From a virus, in IMG/VR virus record IMGVR_UViG_3300034159_000051, positions 1-64,000 of that record: DNA of 64,000 bases. One strand, given 5' to 3'. This document shows positions 24,573 through 55,051 of this stretch, piece after piece; positions within the stretch are counted from its first letter, which is position 1, and each line of letters opens with the position of its first letter. The position numbers were made by a program, and so were the translations under genes. Below the pieces are notes generated by a model. That model was not told the DNA's origin. It worked only from the letters and a program-made list of their open reading frames with translations, and did not search any database.

Positions 24573-27113
24573 ATGAGCACGGTTCTCGACTCCATTTTGG
24601 TCGAACTCGGGCTCGACCCGTCGAAATTCATCGACGGCATGAAGAAGACGATCGAGGAATCCCGCAAGGGCACCGATGAGCTTGAGAGCCATTTCAAACG
24701 GCTGAAGGGGACAACGGACGCTGCGTCTTCCTCGATCGAGGTGTTGACCAAGGCAGCAGGGAAACTCTTCGCGGCCCTGGCCTCCGTGCAGACCGCCAAG
24801 GCCTTTGCGACGTTCGCAACGCATATCGCCATGAACGACGCCGCGCTTGGGCGCGTCGCCGCAAATATCGGGATCAAGCCACAAGACCTTGCAGCGTGGG
24901 GCATGGCGGCCGAGCGAATTGGCGGAAGCCCGCAGGCGACCTATTCTTCGGTCCGAAATCTGCAAGACAAGATCAATTCGACGACTATCGGCGGCGTCAT
25001 GCCGAATGAGTTTTTCTATATCAGCCAAGAGGCGGAGCGGCTCGGCGCCAAGAAAATCCCGTGGGGCAAGAACGTAAACCCGAACGATACGATTTTCGGG
25101 CTCAACAGTTCCTTGCATGTCCTCGGCAAACAAAACAGGCCGCTCGCAAGCAAGCTCGCCAGAGACATCGGCTACGACGACAGCACGACAAACCTGCTTA
25201 TCCAGAAAGGCCCTGAATTCCTCAGGGAATGGCAGGACATTCGCCAGAAGCTAACGCCGAGCGATGAAGACATCCGGGCGGGCGAGCGCCTGCAAGCGGC
25301 GTGGGCGAAGCTCTACCAGACCTTTGATCAACTGGTCCGCATCATCGAGACGGCGAACAACAAGGAATTTGTCGGCCTTATCGATTTTTTCACGTCCCTC
25401 GTCGATCAGCTGATTCGAATTGTCGAGCTTGGGAGGCTGAGCGGCGGCGGCGCGGCTGGAACCGGCGAAACGCTTTATCGGCGCATTGAGCTTCCCGGCA
25501 CATACAATCGGATTCAGCGCGCACTCGGACGCGGTGGATACCGATACGAAAAAGCAAGAGGCGGCGGCGGCGGAGGGTCGTCAGGCGGAGGCGGAGCCTA
25601 TTACTACGGCGGGGCGGCCGGAGGCGGCGGTGGCGCGCAGGGAGGCCAGAGGGAAGACACCTACCAGCGCGTGCCTTTGCCCGGAACACATAACCGCATT
25701 CAACGCGCACTTGGGCGCGGCGGCTATAAGTACGAAAAAGTGCAAGGCGGAGGCGGATCGGCTGGATCTGTAGGATGGGCGGCGCCAGCGCCGGGATGGA
25801 TCACAAAACCAGAAAAACAGGCTATCGCCAGATCCGTAGTCGAAAAATGGCGCAAAGAAGGCGCATCAGACGCAGCCATCGCTGGCGTTCTCGCCAACCT
25901 TCGTGATGAAACGCCATTTGACCCAAATCTTCGAGAATACGATCAGCCAAGATTTTCAAGATCTGATGAGCGTGGCTATGCCCACGGCCTTTATCAAGAG
26001 GGGGCGGGGGAGTGGACGGCTTACTCAAAGTGGCTAAACGGGCGCGATTGGCGGGATCACAATCTGCAAAGCGAGTTTGCGGCCTATAATCTTAGAACGA
26101 ATTATCCGTCGACATGGGCAAAAATGAATGCCGCCACCAAAGAGCAAGCGGCACAAATCTATGTTAATGAATACCTGAAACCCGCAACACGGTGGCGTAT
26201 CCCGAGGATGAACAAATATGCACGCGGCGTCCCCGGCATAGAATATTATACCGAGGGTCGCGGTGGCCAAGGAACATCGCCGGCATTGGGCTCCGCCGGG
26301 CCGGCGAACGTCGGCGGAGGGGGCGGCGGCCTTGTCTCTCCCGTTACGGGGGATTTTGGCGGCTGGTCAAGCAACCATTACGGAGCGGCGCGGGGATGGC
26401 GGCGACGCCATTCTGGTGTTGACTGGCATGCCGCCACAGGCTCGGCGGCTTACGCCATGAAGGGCGGCACCGTCATTTATAGAGGTTATTCCCAAGGCTA
26501 CCAGGGAAATATCGCAATCCTCGATGACGATGGGACAACGATCAGGCGATACGCTGTTCACGGCGCGACCGAGAATTTAGCAATTGGCGCAAAGGTTGCT
26601 GCGGGGTCCAGGATCGGGACGATCGATAGGGGCCATCTCCATTATGAGGAGATTCCTCGAGACCTTAATGGGAGGCCGAACTACGTTTTCCGAGAATTTC
26701 TGGCAAACTCCAGAAGCAATTCGTTTACGTCGACAGCCCATCAGCGCGGAACGCAACTTCCGCTCGGCGGACGTCTGCCCTACGGAACGCAGGTGCAGGC
26801 GGGCTCCCTCCTCTTTCCGAACGAACCAAACCGCGATTTGCGCGGCTATCTGAACCACCATCGCGAAACGCTGCGCAAAGAACACATCCGCCGAATCATC
26901 CGCGTCCACGGCGCGGCTCTTTCGTCGGCGAGCGGCCCAACCGTCCGCCACACAACCAATACAACGGATTCTCATTTTCACTCTCCCGTGGTTGTCCACT
27001 CCAACGCCATGACCGGAAAGGAGCTGATGGGACACATCAAAGACGCCATCGCTAGGAAGGCCAAGCGGGCGGAGAAGCCGTTATCCGAAAGCACCGAACG
27101 CGCAGAGAAGTAA
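24573..27113 (+). CDS. Tape measure protein 1 with tail-lysozyme and M23 peptidase domains
   Basis: 846 residues. The first ~290 residues are the tape measure region (ILVELGLDPSKFIDGMKKT, MNDAALGRVAANIG). Residues ~300-410 hold two copies of a Gly-rich cassette around NRIQRALGRGGY. Residues ~410-560 resemble phage tail lysozyme (VVEKWRKEGASDAAIAGVLAN, LRDETPFDPN, AHGLYQEGAGEW). Residues ~595-700 are an M23 metallopeptidase with H613/D617 (HSGVD), H663 and H688-x-H690 (HLH). It probably sets tail length and cuts peptidoglycan during entry. It is short for a tape measure, shares its N terminus with the next gene, and carries both a glycan- and a peptide-cutting domain. Confidence 0.85.
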   Translation: MSTVLDSILVELGLDPSKFIDGMKKTIEESRKGTDELESHFKRLKGTTDAASSSIEVLTKAAGKLFAALASVQTAKAFATFATHIAMNDAALGRVAANIGIKPQDLAAWGMAAERIGGSPQATYSSVRNLQDKINSTTIGGVMPNEFFYISQEAERLGAKKIPWGKNVNPNDTIFGLNSSLHVLGKQNRPLASKLARDIGYDDSTTNLLIQKGPEFLREWQDIRQKLTPSDEDIRAGERLQAAWAKLYQTFDQLVRIIETANNKEFVGLIDFFTSLVDQLIRIVELGRLSGGGAAGTGETLYRRIELPGTYNRIQRALGRGGYRYEKARGGGGGGSSGGGGAYYYGGAAGGGGGAQGGQREDTYQRVPLPGTHNRIQRALGRGGYKYEKVQGGGGSAGSVGWAAPAPGWITKPEKQAIARSVVEKWRKEGASDAAIAGVLANLRDETPFDPNLREYDQPRFSRSDERGYAHGLYQEGAGEWTAYSKWLNGRDWRDHNLQSEFAAYNLRTNYPSTWAKMNAATKEQAAQIYVNEYLKPATRWRIPRMNKYARGVPGIEYYTEGRGGQGTSPALGSAGPANVGGGGGGLVSPVTGDFGGWSSNHYGAARGWRRRHSGVDWHAATGSAAYAMKGGTVIYRGYSQGYQGNIAILDDDGTTIRRYAVHGATENLAIGAKVAAGSRIGTIDRGHLHYEEIPRDLNGRPNYVFREFLANSRSNSFTSTAHQRGTQLPLGGRLPYGTQVQAGSLLFPNEPNRDLRGYLNHHRETLRKEHIRRIIRVHGAALSSASGPTVRHTTNTTDSHFHSPVVVHSNAMTGKELMGHIKDAIARKAKRAEKPLSESTERAEK

Positions 27114-27131: not shown

Positions 27132-28943
27132 ATGAGCAACCTTCTCGAAACCCTCCTGATCGAAATCGGGCTCGACCCGGACAAGTTTCTGGGCGGGATG
27201 GCGCAAACCCTTGAGGCGTCCAAAAAGGGCAAGGAGGCCATCCTCAAAGACGCCAACAAAATCGAGCAGGCGCAAAACAAGGCCGCCGACGCCGTCAACA
27301 AATTGAAGCGTGAGGTCCAGGGCTTCCTGTCGATCATCGCGGGCGGCTACAGCGCCGCGGCCATCGCCAATTTTGTGACCAACCTCGCCAACGCCGACGC
27401 GGCGGCCGGGCGTCTTGCGGCGAATATCGGCATGCTTCCGGAGAAGCTCCAGGCGTATGGCCTCGCCGCCGAGCGCATGGGCGGCGACAAAAACGCGGCG
27501 ATGAACTCGGTCAGAAACGTTCGCGACATGATCACGCGGACGGAGACGGGCGGCCAGCTGCCCTTGTCCTTCTTCCAACTCGGAAGCCAAGGCCTCGGCG
27601 GTGGCAGCATCCCCTACGGAGCCGGCGTCAGTTTTGAAAATCAGACCATGCCGAAGATCGCCGAGGCGCTCTACAACATGGCCAACGGCAACGCCGCGCT
27701 TGGCGTCGCCGCCAACCGGCCGCGCGCAAGCCAATACGGCCGCGATCTCGGCATGGACGACAATTTCGTCAACCTCTTAATGAAGGAGGGCCGGCCCGGC
27801 TGGGAGAAGCTCGAAAAACTCAGCAAGACGCTGGTCGCAAAAAAGGAAGACATCGAAGCGGCGGAACAACTGCAAGAGGCGTGGTGGACCTTAAAACAGA
27901 CCGTCACTCGCCTAATGACAATCATATCAACAAAACTCAATCCTCTTTTTACCGGCGTCCTGAAGTTTCTTACTGATGTTTTTGTCGCATTGGGAGGATT
28001 GGAGACTCCAAAAGAGCGAGAGGAATACAACAAGCTGCGCGATGAACAATACAAGAGGGAGCACCCGGACGGGCCGCCTTTGGCTCCAAGCAAGATCTTC
28101 CCTGAACTCTTTGGGGGAAATACTTCAGGAGGAGCGGGAGCGGATGCTCCGCAGGTAAGTCAACCAAGCGATTCCGCAGGAGGCTCGCCGCCGGCCGCCA
28201 CCGTTGCGCCAGCAGAATCGCCTCCGCCGTCTGCGCCGTCCAGCTCATCATCGCCAACGGGCGCGCCTGCGCCATCGGGCGGCAATCAGCCGAAGATGCA
28301 AGACCGCCTGTTGCCAGAGCAAAAACGGGCGCCGGGCGTGTGGAATTGGTTCAAGCGCCGATTGAACACGGGTGGATATGAATCGACGGCGCCGCAAGGC
28401 GAGCAACCCAAAACGCTGGACATATCGCCGAAGGATTTCGAATCGCAGGCTCCGTCCGGGGCTTCAGGCTCTGGGCCGAAGACGCAAGACCGCCTGCCCG
28501 AGGGAGCGACGGGATCTGCCGGAAATTCGTCCGCCTGGGATCCCTTTATCGGATCGAAGGACGTGAAACGCGGCGGCGATCTCCCAAGTCAATACGACGC
28601 CTTCATGAAAGATTTGGGGAACCAAGGGATCAAAGACGTCCCGTCGCTCGGCTCTCCTTCCTCGCGGTCCCCTATCCGCAGGTACATGGAGAGGAGAAGG
28701 TCCGCCGAAAATATCGGGGCGTGGCACGCCGCCATGGCGAGCGCCGGCCCAGGAGGGGCGTCGCTCTCTGCGGCGCGGAGCGCAGCCGTCGGGAACATGA
28801 CGACGAACCAGTCGAGCATGAACATCCTGGGGCCGATTCAATTCCACGGGGTCGGGGATGATCCGCGCGGCTTATCTCCGATCGTGAGGCCGGCGCTCAA
28901 GCGCCAGAGTTACGGCTACTGCAGCAACCAAGGAGCGTGTTAG
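27132..28943 (+). CDS. Tape measure protein 2 (paralogue of gene 24573)
   Basis: 603 residues. The first ~280 match tape measure 1 in order and spacing: LLIEIGLDPDKFLGGMAQT, NADAAAGRLAANIGMLPEKL, AYGLAAERMGGDKNAA, AEQLQEAWWTLKQTV. The rest is a Pro/Ser/Ala-rich low-complexity stretch (~330-420) and a polar tail with no lytic domain. This is a tandem duplication, with only copy 1 keeping or gaining enzyme domains. Whether the two copolymerise or specialise is unknown. AAAACCGGATCATCTGAAA precedes the start without a strong ribosome site. Confidence 0.8.
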   Translation: MSNLLETLLIEIGLDPDKFLGGMAQTLEASKKGKEAILKDANKIEQAQNKAADAVNKLKREVQGFLSIIAGGYSAAAIANFVTNLANADAAAGRLAANIGMLPEKLQAYGLAAERMGGDKNAAMNSVRNVRDMITRTETGGQLPLSFFQLGSQGLGGGSIPYGAGVSFENQTMPKIAEALYNMANGNAALGVAANRPRASQYGRDLGMDDNFVNLLMKEGRPGWEKLEKLSKTLVAKKEDIEAAEQLQEAWWTLKQTVTRLMTIISTKLNPLFTGVLKFLTDVFVALGGLETPKEREEYNKLRDEQYKREHPDGPPLAPSKIFPELFGGNTSGGAGADAPQVSQPSDSAGGSPPAATVAPAESPPPSAPSSSSSPTGAPAPSGGNQPKMQDRLLPEQKRAPGVWNWFKRRLNTGGYESTAPQGEQPKTLDISPKDFESQAPSGASGSGPKTQDRLPEGATGSAGNSSAWDPFIGSKDVKRGGDLPSQYDAFMKDLGNQGIKDVPSLGSPSSRSPIRRYMERRRSAENIGAWHAAMASAGPGGASLSAARSAAVGNMTTNQSSMNILGPIQFHGVGDDPRGLSPIVRPALKRQSYGYCSNQGAC

Positions 28944-39825: not shown

Positions 39826-41070
39826 ATGGAATTGACCCCATCCCAAAAGCTCCTTTGCGAGCGGATCATCAATGTCTTTGAGACCAGCAGCATTCATGGA
39901 GACTACGGGAATATCAGCATCTTTCGAGATGGCCCTGGCCGGATACGGCAGATCACGTTTGGTCGCTCACAGACAACGGAATATGGCAATCTTCGCGAGC
40001 TTGTCTCGATGTATGTGGAGGCGGGCGGCGTCTATTCCGAGCGCTTGCGCCCATTTGTTTCTCTGATCGGACGACAGGCGCTTGTCAATAACGTGGCGTT
40101 CAAAGACCTCTTGAAGCGGGCCGGGCGCGGCGACCCGATCATGGAGACGACGCAGGACGCTTTCTTCGATAAGCGCTATTTCCAGCCCGCGCTCAAGTGG
40201 GCGCAGGATCACGGGTTCTCGCGGGCGCTTTCGGTGCTCGTGATCTATGACAGCTTCATTCACTCGGGCGGGATACTCGACTTGCTCCGCGCCCGGTTTT
40301 CGGAGCGGCCTCCCAGCAAAGGCGGCAGGGAGGAAGTCTGGATCCGCCAGTATGTCGAGGCTCGCAACGATTGGCTGCGCACGCACTCGAATAGAATTCT
40401 CCGCCCAACCGTTTATCGGACGCAATGCTTTTTGCGCGAGATCAAGCGCGAGAATTGGGATTTGGCTCAACTCCCGATCGTCGCTCATGGCGTTTCTGTC
40501 GACGATAAGCCCCTTGCGCAATCGAGTTCCGCTCCCGTTGCGTTCTTGTCCGACTACGCCGATGCATCCCTGTTTTCGAGTATCATCTTCAAAATCAAGG
40601 AGATCGCCATGTTTTGGCAAGCGGTTCTCATCAACCTTATCCCCAACTTAGCCAGTAAGGTCATCAACATGGCGAGCGATGCTTTTGCGACTGAAACAGC
40701 GCCAGCCCCCGCCAAGGCGGAGGCAAAGGTGGAAACACGAGCGGCCACGGCCGGCGTCAACCTCAGCAAGACGACGGTCGCGACGGGTCTAGCCGGGACG
40801 ATCTTTGGAACCGTCATCGCCATAGCGTCGCCTTTTTTGATCGCGCTCGATCCGAGCGCGCAGCATGTCATCAGCGGCGTCTTCACCGGCTTGGCGGGCC
40901 TCGGAGCCGTCATCGCGTCTGTTTGGCAACTGTTCCACCTGAATGCGACCACATCGGACAATACGCTGTCGATGATCAACAGCGCAACGGAGGCGGCGAA
41001 GCAGCTAGCTGATATTGTCAGCAAGCCAGGGGCTCAACCATCGGACCCTACCCACGCGGCGAGCGCATGA
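39826..41070 (+). CDS. Chitosanase-like (GH46) lysin fused to a holin-like domain
   Basis: 414 residues from ATG 39826, with GGAG upstream. Residues 1-250 resemble GH46 chitosanases as used by phages for lysis: LTPSQKLLCERIINVFETSS with E19 as likely acid, YGNISIFRDGPGRIRQITFGR with D35 as likely base, QDAFFDKRYFQPALKWAQ, and the long helix VLVIYDSFIHSGG. Residues ~305-350 and ~355-380 form two membrane segments (VATGLAGTIFGTVIAIASPF, VISGVFTGLAGLGAVIASVW). Endolysin and holin are normally separate. An internal ATG with a strong ribosome site (see 40609) could release the holin alone. Confidence 0.78.
   Translation: MELTPSQKLLCERIINVFETSSIHGDYGNISIFRDGPGRIRQITFGRSQTTEYGNLRELVSMYVEAGGVYSERLRPFVSLIGRQALVNNVAFKDLLKRAGRGDPIMETTQDAFFDKRYFQPALKWAQDHGFSRALSVLVIYDSFIHSGGILDLLRARFSERPPSKGGREEVWIRQYVEARNDWLRTHSNRILRPTVYRTQCFLREIKRENWDLAQLPIVAHGVSVDDKPLAQSSSAPVAFLSDYADASLFSSIIFKIKEIAMFWQAVLINLIPNLASKVINMASDAFATETAPAPAKAEAKVETRAATAGVNLSKTTVATGLAGTIFGTVIAIASPFLIALDPSAQHVISGVFTGLAGLGAVIASVWQLFHLNATTSDNTLSMINSATEAAKQLADIVSKPGAQPSDPTHAASA
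40609..41070 (+). CDS. Holin-like protein from an internal start (inferred)
   Basis: In the same frame as the lysin gene, AAGGAG at 40597-40602 lies 6 nt before ATG 40609. This would make a 153-residue protein starting MFWQAVLINLIPNLASKVIN, containing an Ala/Lys-rich linker and both membrane segments, with no lysin part. This is the size and layout of small two-helix holins. The ribosome site is better than that of the full-length gene. Confidence 0.6.
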   Translation: MFWQAVLINLIPNLASKVINMASDAFATETAPAPAKAEAKVETRAATAGVNLSKTTVATGLAGTIFGTVIAIASPFLIALDPSAQHVISGVFTGLAGLGAVIASVWQLFHLNATTSDNTLSMINSATEAAKQLADIVSKPGAQPSDPTHAASA

Positions 41071-41435
41071 GCAGCCGCGAATATCACGAACTAAAACACG
41101 AGCTTGTCCGTTTAAAACAAGACCTTCACCACCTGAACCAGGAGATAAAACGCATGAAGCTTGACCTCGACAAAATCAGGGCGGCCGCCGCGAAACTCGT
41201 ATTGGACGTCGATAAGCTCCGCGTCGATGTCCCCGCTGCGATTCTGGCGGCGGCGGCAGGCGCAGACGATGCGGCAAATCAGGCCGCTATCGACGGCATC
41301 GCCTTGGCGCTCACAGGCGTCTCGGAATCTCTAACGGCGCTTGACACAAGCATCCATCCGGCGCCAGCCGAGGAGCCAGTTCCTCCTGTCGAAGCTCCTC
41401 CCGCCGAAGCTCCTGCGGAGCCGGCCGCGGCCTAG
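41067..41435 (+). CDS. Coiled-coil protein in the lysis cassette
   Basis: 122 residues, ATGA overlap with the holin domain. Residues 5-55 form a strong heptad pattern (LVRLKQDLHHLNQEIKRMKL); the C terminus is Pro/Ala/Glu repeats (APPAEAPAEP). No signal peptide or membrane helix. Small coiled-coil proteins after holins occur in Rhizobiales phages; role unknown, perhaps a lysis regulator. Confidence 0.7.
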   Translation: MSSREYHELKHELVRLKQDLHHLNQEIKRMKLDLDKIRAAAAKLVLDVDKLRVDVPAAILAAAAGADDAANQAAIDGIALALTGVSESLTALDTSIHPAPAEEPVPPVEAPPAEAPAEPAAA

Positions 41436-41438
41436 AAC

Positions 41439-41624
41439 CTATCGGATTTCCGGGGAAGCTTGGCTTTCCCGGTTGTCTCCGTTATCGAGTATCCGGTTCA
41501 TGCGCCGCCTCGCGGAAAGAAGCGTGACCTTAAGGCCAATGTCATTTGGATTGCTTGTTAGTGCAGACTCAATCGCAGTAACCTTGGCGCAGGCTGCATT
41601 ACGTTCATCCACCAAACCTTCCAT
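41439..41624 (-). CDS. Orphan leftward small gene inside the lysis cassette
   Basis: 61 residues, helical and charged (MEGLVDERNAACAKVTAIES, NDIGLKVTLLSARRRMN), resembling small phage proteins of unknown function. AGGAAAAAATTATAG before the ATG gives a plausible ribosome site. It points against its neighbours and is bracketed by two similar hairpins (41450, 41661). No real rightward gene occupies this space. Confidence 0.5.
   Translation of the reverse strand: MEGLVDERNAACAKVTAIESALTSNPNDIGLKVTLLSARRRMNRILDNGDNRESQASPEIR
41450..41472 (+). repeat. Hairpin repeat, left copy
   Basis: CCGGGGAAGCTTGGCTTTCC (then CGG) can fold on CCGGG/CCCGG with GAAGC/GCTTT partly paired. It is followed by TTGTCTCC. 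Compare 41661. Confidence 0.5.
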
Positions 41625-41660
41625 CTATAATTTTTTCCTAGAGCAGCCTATCTGGGAATG

Positions 41661-41690
41661 CCGGGGAGCTTAGGCTCTTCCGGTTGTTTT
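41661..41690 (+). terminator. Hairpin repeat, right copy, with T run
   Basis: CCGGGGAGCTTAGGCTCTTC (then CGG) followed by TTGTTTT. It closely matches the left copy in sequence and in the TTGT that follows. The T run makes this copy a likely rightward terminator. Confidence 0.55.
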
Positions 41691-41724
41691 GCGTTTCACG
41701 CAACCCAAAACCGAAACGACCCAA

Positions 41725-42327
41725 ATGGAAACCCAAACCACAAGCAACGAGGCCACGCGCTCTAACACGCGGCCCCGTCTAGCCGCAGCAGAGGAGACTG
41801 CCTTGGCGTCCCAGCATATGAATGGAGTTTACAACGAAAGCGGAGGCGATGCTATTCCGTCGTCAGATCAAAGTTTATGGAAAGTCATAAGGGCGGAATG
41901 GCGCGTGATCGGAATGGTGCTCAGTCCGTTTGCTCTAGCCCTCGCGGTCTACTTTGTCCCGGCGACACAAGGCGGGCTTGATGGCGTCCGCACCGAAGCC
42001 GCGGCGAAACTCGAACTCACAAAGACCGATATCGGCGGCCAGCTAAATCAGGTAAAGACCGAACTCAATGGTCAGATAGCCGTCATTACAACTCGCATCA
42101 ACGGGCTGCAGGAAACCTTAACTCACACCCAATCCGGCGTCGATGAACTCCTCCGCCGATCGGCCCCACCTCCCCGCCAATACGATTCTCCCCAGATCGC
42201 GGCGTCTTCGTCCGCCCCTCCCCAAGATAATCCCCCCCAAGAAGCTCGCAGAGCTACGAAAAAGAAGCCGATCGCGGCCAAGCCGCAACCGCAGCCGCAG
42301 CCGACCGGATTCCTCTTTTTCAGATAA
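41725..42327 (+). CDS. Membrane-anchored coiled-coil protein, spanin-like candidate
   Basis: 200 residues from ATG 41725; a TTG at 41689 in frame is possible, and neither has a good ribosome site. A central membrane helix (VIGMVLSPFALALAVYFV) is followed by a long coiled coil (LELTKTDIGGQLNQVKTELN) and a Pro/Gln/Lys-rich tail (KPQPQPQPTG). One helix, a periplasm-sized coil and a place after the holin suggest an inner-membrane spanin, but the helix is internal and no outer partner was found. Confidence 0.55.
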   Translation: METQTTSNEATRSNTRPRLAAAEETALASQHMNGVYNESGGDAIPSSDQSLWKVIRAEWRVIGMVLSPFALALAVYFVPATQGGLDGVRTEAAAKLELTKTDIGGQLNQVKTELNGQIAVITTRINGLQETLTHTQSGVDELLRRSAPPPRQYDSPQIAASSSAPPQDNPPQEARRATKKKPIAAKPQPQPQPTGFLFFR

Positions 42328-42333
42328 GCGTTT

Positions 42334-42468
42334 ATGAGTTTTATTCCGGCCAACGAAGAGGATAATGCAACCATCCATTTGTCGCCTCTGAGCAACAGCG
42401 CACACAGGATTCGTCCTAAGAAATCACTTTTTGTTTCGAATATCGGGACAAATCGCGCTAGGGCGTAG
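42334..42468 (+). CDS. Possible 44-residue peptide
   Basis: A frame starting MSFIPANEEDNATIHLSPLS and ending before the outer-membrane protein gene. No clear ribosome site and no recognised family. The 200-nt gap otherwise probably holds the promoter of the next gene; no convincing -35/-10 pair was fixed. Confidence 0.25.
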   Translation: MSFIPANEEDNATIHLSPLSNSAHRIRPKKSLFVSNIGTNRARA

Positions 42469-42527
42469 TCCCCCGTGTGTTGTGTTTGTTGCGTCTGCGT
42501 TGATCCATTCAACAAAGGACTCAACCT

Positions 42528-43220
42528 ATGAGGCATATCCGTACCCTTCTCGCAGCCGCTGCGCTGCTCAGCGTCGCGGCTTCGGCCCAGGCGGCGGACC
42601 TCTACCCTGGAAGCACGAAAGACGCGCCTGCCTCCTCTTATACGGCAAATACGTGGACTGGGTTTTATGTTGGCGCCGGCGTCACAGGAAACTTTGTGGA
42701 CCACGTTCTTTCCAACCCATCTGGGTCAACTGTGTTCGATGGACTGGCGGCACAAGGCGTGGGAGGGTCGTTCTTCGGCGGCGTGAATTATCAGGTTCAG
42801 CGGATCGTTTTTGGCGTTGAGGGGAACTTCGATCTATCAAACGCCGATACATCGCTTATCGCCTCTGATGACGAGGTTAGGCTTGCCCTCAATCACACTT
42901 GGGGCGTAACCGCTCGTGGCGGCGTCCTGGCCACGCCTCAAACACTGATCTATGGCAAGGTCGGCTATGGCGGCGCCGAGTTTGAGGCCAAAGGAACCAT
43001 TGTTTCGACCAAGAACGCGACAACCTATTCCTCCGAGGGGATGATCGCTGGCGGCGGCATCGAGACGCGAATCTGGGAAAACTTCACGATCCGTGCGGAA
43101 TATTCATGGCTCGGCTTGGACAGCAAGACAATCGAAGATGCAGCCAAGTTCGACACGGACATTCAGACGGTCAAGCTTGGCGTCTCCTATTTGATCCCGG
43201 TCAAAACGCCGTTGAATTAA
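42528..43220 (+). CDS. Outer-membrane beta-barrel protein (Omp25/Omp31 family)
   Basis: 230 residues. Signal peptide MRHIRTLLAAAALLSVAASA, probably cut after AQA at residue 22. Then the family hallmark (NTWTGFYVGAGVTGNF), VGGSFFGGVNYQ, GVEGNFDLS, HTWGVTARGGVLAT, LIYGKVGYGGAEFE, and FTIRAEYSWLGLD: eight alternating amphipathic strands. This is a host-type surface protein, not a virion component. AAAGGA lies 9 nt before the ATG. It ends ...SYLIPVKTPLN and lacks the final Phe typical of barrels, which may affect insertion. Likely role: changing the lysogen surface or blocking reinfection. Confidence 0.85.
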   Translation: MRHIRTLLAAAALLSVAASAQAADLYPGSTKDAPASSYTANTWTGFYVGAGVTGNFVDHVLSNPSGSTVFDGLAAQGVGGSFFGGVNYQVQRIVFGVEGNFDLSNADTSLIASDDEVRLALNHTWGVTARGGVLATPQTLIYGKVGYGGAEFEAKGTIVSTKNATTYSSEGMIAGGGIETRIWENFTIRAEYSWLGLDSKTIEDAAKFDTDIQTVKLGVSYLIPVKTPLN

Positions 43221-43264
43221 GGGTTTTCCGGGACGGGATTCCCTCCCTTAGACCCGGAAATAGA

Positions 43265-43305
43265 GGCGGCGCTCCATCGTACAGACGGAGCGCCGCCAGT
43301 TTTTT
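43265..43305 (+). terminator. Terminator between the convergent late and early regions
   Basis: Perfect 11-bp stem GGCGGCGCTCC/GGAGCGCCGCC followed by AGTTTTTT. It lies between the rightward barrel gene and the leftward stop at 43304. Read leftward the T run is poor (TCTATTT), so it mainly stops the late transcript. Confidence 0.9.
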
Positions 43306-43528
43306 AGGACGAACCATCGTCCGATATTTCTTCCACCCCCGCCTCCCTGCGGATCACGTTCCTGATTTTGAGACTTCCGGGGATGGTACTCAGCCAAAGT
43401 TCGGCCCGATGCATAACGCTCAGCAGGGCTTCGATCCGTTCCTCAAGCTCTATGATTTTGGCTTCACTCTCCGTCGGTTCGGTGAAAAATTGGGCGGAGC
43501 GCTCTGCATCTTCATCGACTGCGCTCAT
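43304..43528 (-). CDS. Small coiled-coil protein
   Basis: 74 residues from the ATG at 43528 (ATGA overlap with the upstream gene). A central helix ESEAKIIELEERIEALLSVM is followed by a basic then acidic end. Last gene of the leftward region. Function unknown. Confidence 0.65.
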   Translation of the reverse strand: MSAVDEDAERSAQFFTEPTESEAKIIELEERIEALLSVMHRAELWLSTIPGSLKIRNVIRREAGVEEISDDGSS

Positions 43529-43872
43529 GGCTTTGCCTCGGCGGATTGACCATCGAATGTGAAATGGCCGGAATGACCCCACCCGGTACTGTTCCATTTC
43601 AGGCGTATTGATTTGGATGGATTGGCCGGATCGAGACAAAGACCGCCATCGACGCCAGGATTTTGCGCCATCAGGTTCGCAGCGGCCAAGCAAGCGTCCG
43701 CCGACGGGAACGGGATCGAATAAGAGAACGACACCGTCCCGATCTTGCCCGTCAACCGGATATCCGATTTGTAGAAGTGGAAGAGGCCCATAACGGGCGG
43801 GACGGTTTGGGCTTGCGCGCTGGCCGATCCCAGGACCGCGATCGCGGCTAAATACAAGATTCTCAAAGCCAA
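43525..43872 (-). CDS. Exported protein of unknown function
   Basis: 115 residues. Signal peptide MALRILYLAAIAVLGSASAQ, likely cut after AQA. The mature part is a small beta-rich protein with two Cys residues (DACLAAANLM, GGLCLDPA) that may form a disulfide. Exported small proteins beside an integrase are often lysogen-expressed; no family recognised. Confidence 0.7.
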   Translation of the reverse strand: MALRILYLAAIAVLGSASAQAQTVPPVMGLFHFYKSDIRLTGKIGTVSFSYSIPFPSADACLAAANLMAQNPGVDGGLCLDPANPSKSIRLKWNSTGWGHSGHFTFDGQSAEAKP

Positions 43873-44189
43873 ACCTCCACGATCATCCGATCGTCGTCGC
43901 TCCTACGGGGCTGCCAGAAAAGCTTGCGCGGGAGTTGGGCGCGCACGCTCTCAAGCGTCTTGCCTGCAATGAAATAATCGGTTTGCAGGATCTTCGGTTT
44001 TGTAAAGGACATGCGCGCGACGAACTCTTCCGGGTCGTCAGAGGTTCGGCAAACCGTCCATATCGGGCGCCGGTCCGCATTCTCGACATGGATGATTTCA
44101 AGCGGCGTCAGGGGCGCTTCGACCTTTTTCTCAGGCGTGATATACCGCTGCTTTTTCTTCCCGCCGCCGAACCTGAAATGATTGATCAT
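43863..44189 (-). CDS. Hypothetical protein
   Basis: 108 residues from the ATG at 44189 (GAGGT upstream; ATGA overlap with the previous gene). A basic N terminus (HFRFGGGKKKQR) precedes a mixed domain with IIHVENADRRPIWTVCRTSD. No family recognised. Confidence 0.65.
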   Translation of the reverse strand: MINHFRFGGGKKKQRYITPEKKVEAPLTPLEIIHVENADRRPIWTVCRTSDDPEEFVARMSFTKPKILQTDYFIAGKTLESVRAQLPRKLFWQPRRSDDDRMIVEVWL

Positions 44190-44476
44190 GGCTTTTTTAC
44201 CTCGCCTTCTGACGCGGCAGCTTCCAGGGTTCCGCTCCACGTTTTGGCGCAGATATCTCCAAAAAACGCCATGTCGTTCACATCCCAGAATGCTCTTTTA
44301 ATGCGCTCTGTTGGCGTCATAGCCGCTAGAGCGCGAAGAGCGGCGCGCATCTTGTTTATCCATTCTGCGGCGGTATCCGGGTTCGCAGCCTTGAAATCTT
44401 CCCATGAAGTCCAGTCCAGCTCGAAAGCGGCTTTTGCCATTACTTCTGCCGGTATTAGTGTCTCGCTCATTGTCAT
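44186..44476 (-). CDS. Hypothetical protein
   Basis: 96 residues, mainly helical and acidic (KAAFELDWTSWEDFKAANPD). Starts inside the end of the upstream gene and overlaps the next by ATGA, so it is translationally coupled on both sides. No family recognised. Confidence 0.65.
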   Translation of the reverse strand: MTMSETLIPAEVMAKAAFELDWTSWEDFKAANPDTAAEWINKMRAALRALAAMTPTERIKRAFWDVNDMAFFGDICAKTWSGTLEAAASEGEVKKP

Positions 44477-54581: not shown

Positions 54582-54648
54582 TGATCACTCCTTTTACTTT
54601 CTTCGTAGTCGAGAAACGAAGCGTCATCTCCGCTGGCTCGACCTTCAT
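54571..54648 (-). CDS. Possible 25-residue protein
   Basis: ATGA overlap with the upstream membrane protein gene; peptide MKVEPAEMTLRFSTTKKVKG plus five residues. Its end contains the ribosome site and first codons of gene 54150. The tight coupling argues for a real gene; the size argues caution. Confidence 0.35.
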   Translation of the reverse strand: MKVEPAEMTLRFSTTKKVKGVINGR

Positions 54649-54848
54649 CGCGGACCGCCCTCGCCACCCTTTTTATGGAAGGCGCAGAGTATTATTTTTC
54701 CGATCTCGACGGTGACCCCTCCGAGGATGGCGCTGAACGCTAAACGCCAAAACCAGCCTGGGCTTTGATCGAAGCCGCCGGCGATATGGAGGGCGGACCC
54801 GACAACCATGGATGCGGCGAAAATAAAAATAGGATTTGATGTACGCAT
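54645..54848 (-). CDS. Small membrane protein
   Basis: 67 residues from ATG 54848 (TGATG junction; a GTG one codon up is less likely). Two hydrophobic segments (PIFIFAASMVVGSALHIAGG, AFSAILGGVTVEIGKIILCA) and a Lys/Gly end. Holin-like in size but far from the lysis cassette. Confidence 0.65.
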   Translation of the reverse strand: MRTSNPIFIFAASMVVGSALHIAGGFDQSPGWFWRLAFSAILGGVTVEIGKIILCAFHKKGGEGGPR

Positions 54849-55051
54849 CACCCGTCACCTATCTTGCGTTCGATGCAATAATGGTCCGCGAACTCCTCTA
54901 TTGTGTGCTTGCCGTTCACGAGGCCGACGATATGGTCATGCAACTCTTTAAGCGCGTAGGCGTGCACGCCGCCATACATCTTGTCGCCGCGCTTGGCGGC
55001 GGACCCGGCGTTCTCGATCAGGCCCTTGAGGTTGACTTTCATGCCGCTCAT
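54848..55051 (-). CDS. Hypothetical protein
   Basis: 67 residues from the ATG at 55051 abutting motif 15. Helical (LIENAGSAAKRGDKMYGGVH, ELHDHIVGLVNGKHTIEEFA). No family recognised. Confidence 0.7.
   Translation of the reverse strand: MSGMKVNLKGLIENAGSAAKRGDKMYGGVHAYALKELHDHIVGLVNGKHTIEEFADHYCIERKIGDG

Follow-up and report, generated by a model that had tools for sequence, protein, structure and literature searches.

Holin and endolysin usually come from different genes. A two-helix membrane domain at the C-terminus of the lysin is already known from Enc34 (ORF39) and M4Lys, and the Siskin endolysin, likewise of the Casjensviridae, carries such a domain too (PMC8943055, PMC7143992). Full-length M4Lys lyses E. 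coli without a holin, and its transmembrane domain alone is bacteriostatic (PMC8943055, PMC7143992). Two-polypeptide endolysins such as Ms6 LysA, CTP1L and LysIME-EF1 arise from in-frame internal starts with an internal ribosome-binding site (PMC9430671). Their nested products are mainly cell-wall-binding domains, they belong to Gram-positive and mycobacterial phages, and a published endolysin survey for nested starts excluded Gram-negative hosts as unlikely (PMC9430671).

Here we analysed a gene that may bring these two designs together, in a stretch of 64,000 nucleotides (hereafter the window) that forms positions 1 to 64,000 of the virus record IMGVR_UViG_3300034159_000051 (129,260 bases). 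The record carries the gene set of a contractile-tailed phage, comprising a major head protein, a DUF3383 tail sheath, tape-measure-like proteins, baseplate J and a tyrosine integrase. The best phage matches to its sheath reach 38–43% identity, and a search for phage kin through baseplate J among viral contigs found none. Two adjacent tape-measure-like proteins (24573-27113 and 27132-28943) are paralogous over their first ~290 residues (36% identity, E 2e-48), the former additionally having lysozyme and M23 domains. By eye, we take the product of L096:15652-16443 (G000 119652-120443) to be like QueC of the 7-deazaguanine pathway, which suggests DNA base modification. The gene of interest lies 3' of the tail-fibre region, and it and its immediate neighbours comprise the following features:

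39826..41070, + strand: full-length lysin-membrane-hairpin open reading frame of 414 aa, a single open frame from ATG 39826 to the stop at 41070
39826..40512, + strand: GH46 catalytic domain, residues 1-229 (Pfam PF01374, conserved columns, AF2, Foldseek)
40513..40608, + strand: linker, residues 230-261, containing APVAFLSDYADA, similar to the VPFLGD motif seen in extended homologues from bacteria
40597..40602, + strand: internal Shine-Dalgarno (SD) AAGGAG, followed by ATCGCC (6 nt gap) and ATG 40609-40611
40609..41070, + strand: nested open reading frame from the internal ATG, predicted 153-aa holin-like product, in frame with 39826
40729..41070, + strand: rival internal start GTG (residue 302), which would yield a shorter hairpin-only product (SD -9.5 kcal/mol)
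40789..40845, + strand: first hydrophobic (putative transmembrane) helix, residues 322-340, Kyte-Doolittle 2.0
40867..40923, + strand: second hydrophobic (putative transmembrane) helix, residues 348-366, Kyte-Doolittle 1.98
41067..41435, + strand: next gene, a 122-aa coiled-coil-like protein without a transmembrane segment, overlapping the fusion stop as ATGA
41725..42327, + strand: 200-aa protein with one transmembrane helix followed by a coiled coil, a putative i-spanin-like topology

The N-terminal part had been proposed in an earlier note to be a GH46-like lysin domain, and the profile search, the active-site residues and the fold all bore this out. The PF01374 match covers residues 14-214 and scores 48.2 bits (cut-off 27; E=1.3e-12); E19 and D35, the catalytic Glu and Asp, are invariant in alignments of 27 and 36 sequences, and the catalytic T44 is also conserved (>90% in the larger alignment). 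An AlphaFold model (AF2) built from the 36 sequences reached a pLDDT of ~95 over residues 1-230, while a single-sequence model (pLDDT 39) was discarded. With the AF2 model of this domain, Foldseek retrieved chitosanases (E=5e-11) and, among phage proteins, the GH46 protein A0A6J7XBS0 of an uncultured Caudovirales phage (target TM-score 0.94), so that the window gene has the same catalytic fold as the GH46 phage lysins listed in PhaLP. By contrast, this domain is unrelated to the catalytic domain of the Enc34 lysin, PHA02564 (BLASTP E=3.4).

The nearest relatives are plasmid proteins of Rhizobium, Pararhizobium and Microvirga (50–62% identity), and further close relatives are found in the viral contig L006 (68%) and in Reyranella (67%). 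In the tree, the window sequence and L006 fall outside the main viral group (support 95/66), and their GH46 gene may therefore have been acquired separately. The earlier note had also called chitosanase-type phage lysins uncommon; this holds, but they are not rare, with 35 GH46 loci found here in IMG/VR and 10 GH46 entries in PhaLP (PMC8310338). On the rhizobial plasmids, GH46 enzymes share an operon with an L,D-transpeptidase and DUF3616 (L003:7878-12598, L004:3877-8595, L005:5815-9094), joined in two of the three by a gene for a caspase-family protein, and this operon looks like a putative wall-attack or cell-death module.

The founder members of GH46 are chitosanases, and it could be argued that the window gene is not a lysis gene at all, its product being a hydrophobic-tailed enzyme that is chitosanase-like or associated with the virion. 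Its position 3' of the tail-fibre region and weak tape-measure matches would fit such an enzyme. However, other members of the clade are fused to peptidoglycan-type partners, namely YkuD_2 (L,D-transpeptidase, 1e-43), DUF2272/CHAP (4e-33) and PG_binding_1 (9e-13). Moreover, small stand-alone GH46 relatives occur in phages, some near lysis genes; one member of the clade adjoins a GH24 phage lysozyme and one a weak Rz-spanin match, and the window gene itself lies between the tail fibres and a spanin-like gene. We consider a role outside lysis very improbable. By association with these domain partners, the GH46 clade probably cuts peptidoglycan rather than chitosan, and the substrate implied by the label 'chitosanase' in the earlier note is probably wrong. 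Several bacterial relatives (L035, L036, L041, L043 and L054) swap their C-terminal wall-acting domains (YkuD_2, DUF2272/CHAP or a weak M15-like domain), and several of them have the VPFLGD-like linker motif in common.

The lysis-gene reading is drawn from the place of the cassette after the tail fibres, from the ATGA overlap with the next gene and from the lack of any other adjoining holin-like gene: none was found in the cassette within the 129-kb record. This differs from Enc34, in which a separate holin gene, ORF38, lies directly upstream of the lysin gene. Far from the cassette, a two-helix 68-aa ORF (54645-54851, − strand) is an alternative holin candidate. Family searches with the 41725..42327 product gave no match, and a scan of the + strand from 41000 to 44300 for lipoproteins (o-spanins) gave none. 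Directly 3' of the cassette, 42528-43220 encodes a beta-barrel outer-membrane protein of host-like type (OMP_b-brl, E 2e-13), which may serve in lysogenic conversion.

The C-terminal part had been described as a two-helix holin-like domain, of which the hydrophobic membrane hairpin is supported and the assignment to a holin family is not. As in Enc34 and M4Lys, the catalytic domain is followed by a predicted two-helix membrane domain, seen in the hydropathy profile and in AF2 helices of low confidence (residues 306-339 and 343-371). Of the two transmembrane helices in N-in/C-in topology that mark a class II (two-helix) holin, the sequence shows two hydrophobic peaks, and the topology can be read from charges only. 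Matches to holin profiles were not significant (PHROG holin E=0.084, Pfam Holin-X E=0.15), and family searches with the C-terminal 153 residues gave no significant match. Searches for relatives of the hairpin came up empty in viral contigs, plasmids, phage records and 398 Hyphomicrobiales genomes. The tblastn searches of phages and plasmids returned only weak matches to a protein of ~2,350 aa from jumbo phages of Vibrio/Photobacterium, which we discarded as hydrophobic chance. Membership in the KWW/SRTVWG holin-like family was not accepted either, as the score of 4.3 bits was reached by 97 of 2000 local shuffles (p ~0.05). Nor did any of the ~80 GH46 relatives checked have a membrane segment after the catalytic domain, and by these searches the combination of GH46 with a putative membrane hairpin is a singleton.

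The in-frame fusion claimed for the two parts was confirmed as one 414-aa frame. Still, the GH46 phage lysins found here, unlike the window gene, nearly all consist of a single domain and end at its boundary at about residue 230-235, and every one of them lacks a membrane segment; the viral exceptions with an extra C-terminus are L092 (a peptidoglycan-binding domain) and L089 (a short tail). Two ordinary genes, a separate lysin and a separate holin, might thus have become one through the recent loss of a stop codon or through an assembly or sequencing error, the latter because the record is a metagenomic contig. A TAA at 40506 in another frame means that the stop could have been lost through a single-base indel, and the nested gene carries an SD of its own. 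On the other hand, the frame is open through all 32 linker codons. The linker's codon-position GC (0.44/0.44/0.69) is coding-like, and its APVAFLSDYADA resembles VPFLGD, albeit weakly (p=0.014 against linker shuffles, 0.088 against C-terminal shuffles), which together argue against a translated intergenic gap. We consider such a joining of two genes improbable.

The start signal at the junction, AAGGAG-6 nt-ATG at 40597-40611, is present as the earlier note described it and is in frame with ATG 39826 (offset 783 nt, or 261 codons). In having an in-frame internal start with its own ribosome-binding site, known here from the sequence, the window gene resembles the two-polypeptide endolysins, whereas its predicted nested product is a hydrophobic membrane hairpin rather than a wall-binding domain. 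The internal SD pairs with the anti-SD at -8.5 kcal/mol, the second strongest value among the listed phage gene starts. Within the fusion ORF, it ranks between the rival GTG 40729 (-9.5) and the full-length start ATG 39826 (SD GGCGGAG, -6.6 kcal/mol). Any in-frame strong SD-ATG was present in 3.2% of codon-shuffled versions of ORF 39826-41070, but protein-preserving synonymous shuffles retained an equally strong SD at ATG 40609 in 61% of cases (p 0.61), because Lys-Glu is spelled AAG GAG. We consequently rejected SD strength as proof of a nested start in this gene; taken singly, its internal SD is suggestive, i.e. weak evidence. ATG 40609 is base-paired in a static mRNA prediction, and accessibility of the SD was ordinary and uninformative.

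These observations leave room for the main rival explanation, in which the gene makes a tethered lysin only: the hairpin would be a membrane anchor or export device, the internal SD incidental, and any holin encoded elsewhere. The same architecture has been characterised in Enc34 and M4Lys (PMC8943055, PMC7143992). Enc34 has no strong nested start (best internal ATG SD -3.7 kcal/mol, compared with -8.5 for ATG 40609), codons in common use for Lys-Glu spell the window SD, and a holin might be encoded at a distance, by the two-helix ORF at 54645-54851. Against this stand the missing holin gene in the window cassette, where Enc34 has one directly upstream, and the retention of a nested start in fused GH108 lysins, as described below. 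On balance, we regard a tethered lysin only as rather unlikely, although it is the strongest competitor of the dual-product reading.

To see whether a start for the hairpin is retained once lysin and hairpin are fused, we gathered GH108 and GH24 lysins from Hyphomicrobiales and Alphaproteobacteria. A C-terminal hydrophobic helix was present in 23 of the 57 lysin ORFs, a set that includes that of the window. Unfused alphaproteobacterial lysins often precede an overlapping membrane-protein gene, several of them via ATGA with the SD inside the lysin gene; this arrangement is the likely ancestor of the fusions and would also fit two ordinary genes joined by stop-codon loss. Among the hairpins, the KWWxxSxTIW type also has a stand-alone relative of 74 aa (L158), which matches a PHROG holin family (E 6.5e-8). 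Scanning viral contigs for this KWW-type hairpin yielded 49 loci, 45 of which are fusions to a GH108 lysin (42 of the 45 non-redundant at 80%). All 45 fusions carry an in-frame start 5-24 codons 5' of the hairpin with an AAGG/GGAG/AGGA core. An SD of -7 kcal/mol or stronger was found in 30/45 junction windows compared with 4/277 same-size control windows from the catalytic part (Fisher p 8e-27, from related sequences). The SD core occurs in all three codon phases, which implies that nucleotides were kept rather than one peptide. Relative to synonymous shuffles the gain was modest (-7.1 versus -5.4 kcal/mol, Stouffer p 4e-4), and because the sequences are related, these p-values overstate significance. 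Host genomes contained 16 fused loci, overlapping with the earlier set, and 12 of these had an ATG with an SD of -5 kcal/mol or stronger. The lysins of the fusions match NF040573 (holin-associated N-acetylmuramidase) below its cut-off, and two have an N-terminal TIGR02594 domain. All three upstream neighbours that could be typed match the GTA megatron. Hyphomicrobiales GTA-like clusters (L189-L237 and L239-L254) encode lysin and holin-like hairpin within a single ORF, whose nested start is conserved.

Judged from these loci, a nested start is strongly conserved in the GH108 lysin-holin fusions of alphaproteobacterial GTA-like clusters. The window gene shares with them the in-frame fusion of a lysin to a hairpin and a junction start whose SD (-8.5 kcal/mol) is within the family range, and this same design of domains, reading frame and start signal is conserved in these unrelated lysins. 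It differs in that its catalytic domain is GH46 and not GH108, its hairpin is a different one (homology p ~0.05), and it lies in a large phage, whereas the GH108-KWW fusions are mostly in GTA-like clusters beside the GTA megatron. In our assessment, the comparative result lends strong and decisive support to the nested-start idea, though it comes from a different family. The fusion with a nested holin start that the earlier note envisaged thus has a sound gene model and a strong GH108 analogy, but its own SD is weak evidence (61% of shuffles) and GTG 40729 is a rival start.

We therefore favour, with somewhat better than even confidence, a dual-product lysis gene that makes a full-length tethered lysin and a free holin-like hairpin. 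In this reading, a large temperate phage with a contractile tail would use it for lysis. The long product would be a GH46-fold peptidoglycan hydrolase tethered to the inner membrane by its C-terminal two-helix hairpin, with the catalytic domain in the cytoplasm, and ribosomes that enter at the junction, most likely at ATG 40609, would give the hairpin domain alone. Free hairpins might then co-assemble with tethered ones, and this assembly would open the membrane, giving the enzyme, which would already sit at the hole, access to the wall. The ratio of the two products may time lysis, as the earlier note proposed. One gene may in this way both arm and trigger the bursting of the cell.

At about even odds in our judgement, the window gene exemplifies a recurrent design of alphaproteobacterial phages and GTAs, in which lysin and holin share one ORF, a nested holin start is under selection and two ribosome sites set the product ratio; it would have more than one origin, GTA-like clusters having used GH108 and this phage GH46. 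If true, a gene that makes both a tethered lysin and its free membrane partner would offer a direct test of how lysins of the Enc34/M4Lys type reach the wall, and a single start-codon change combined with lysis timing could probe the dual-product model. The conserved GTA-like version would also bear on how gene transfer agents open only part of a cell population.
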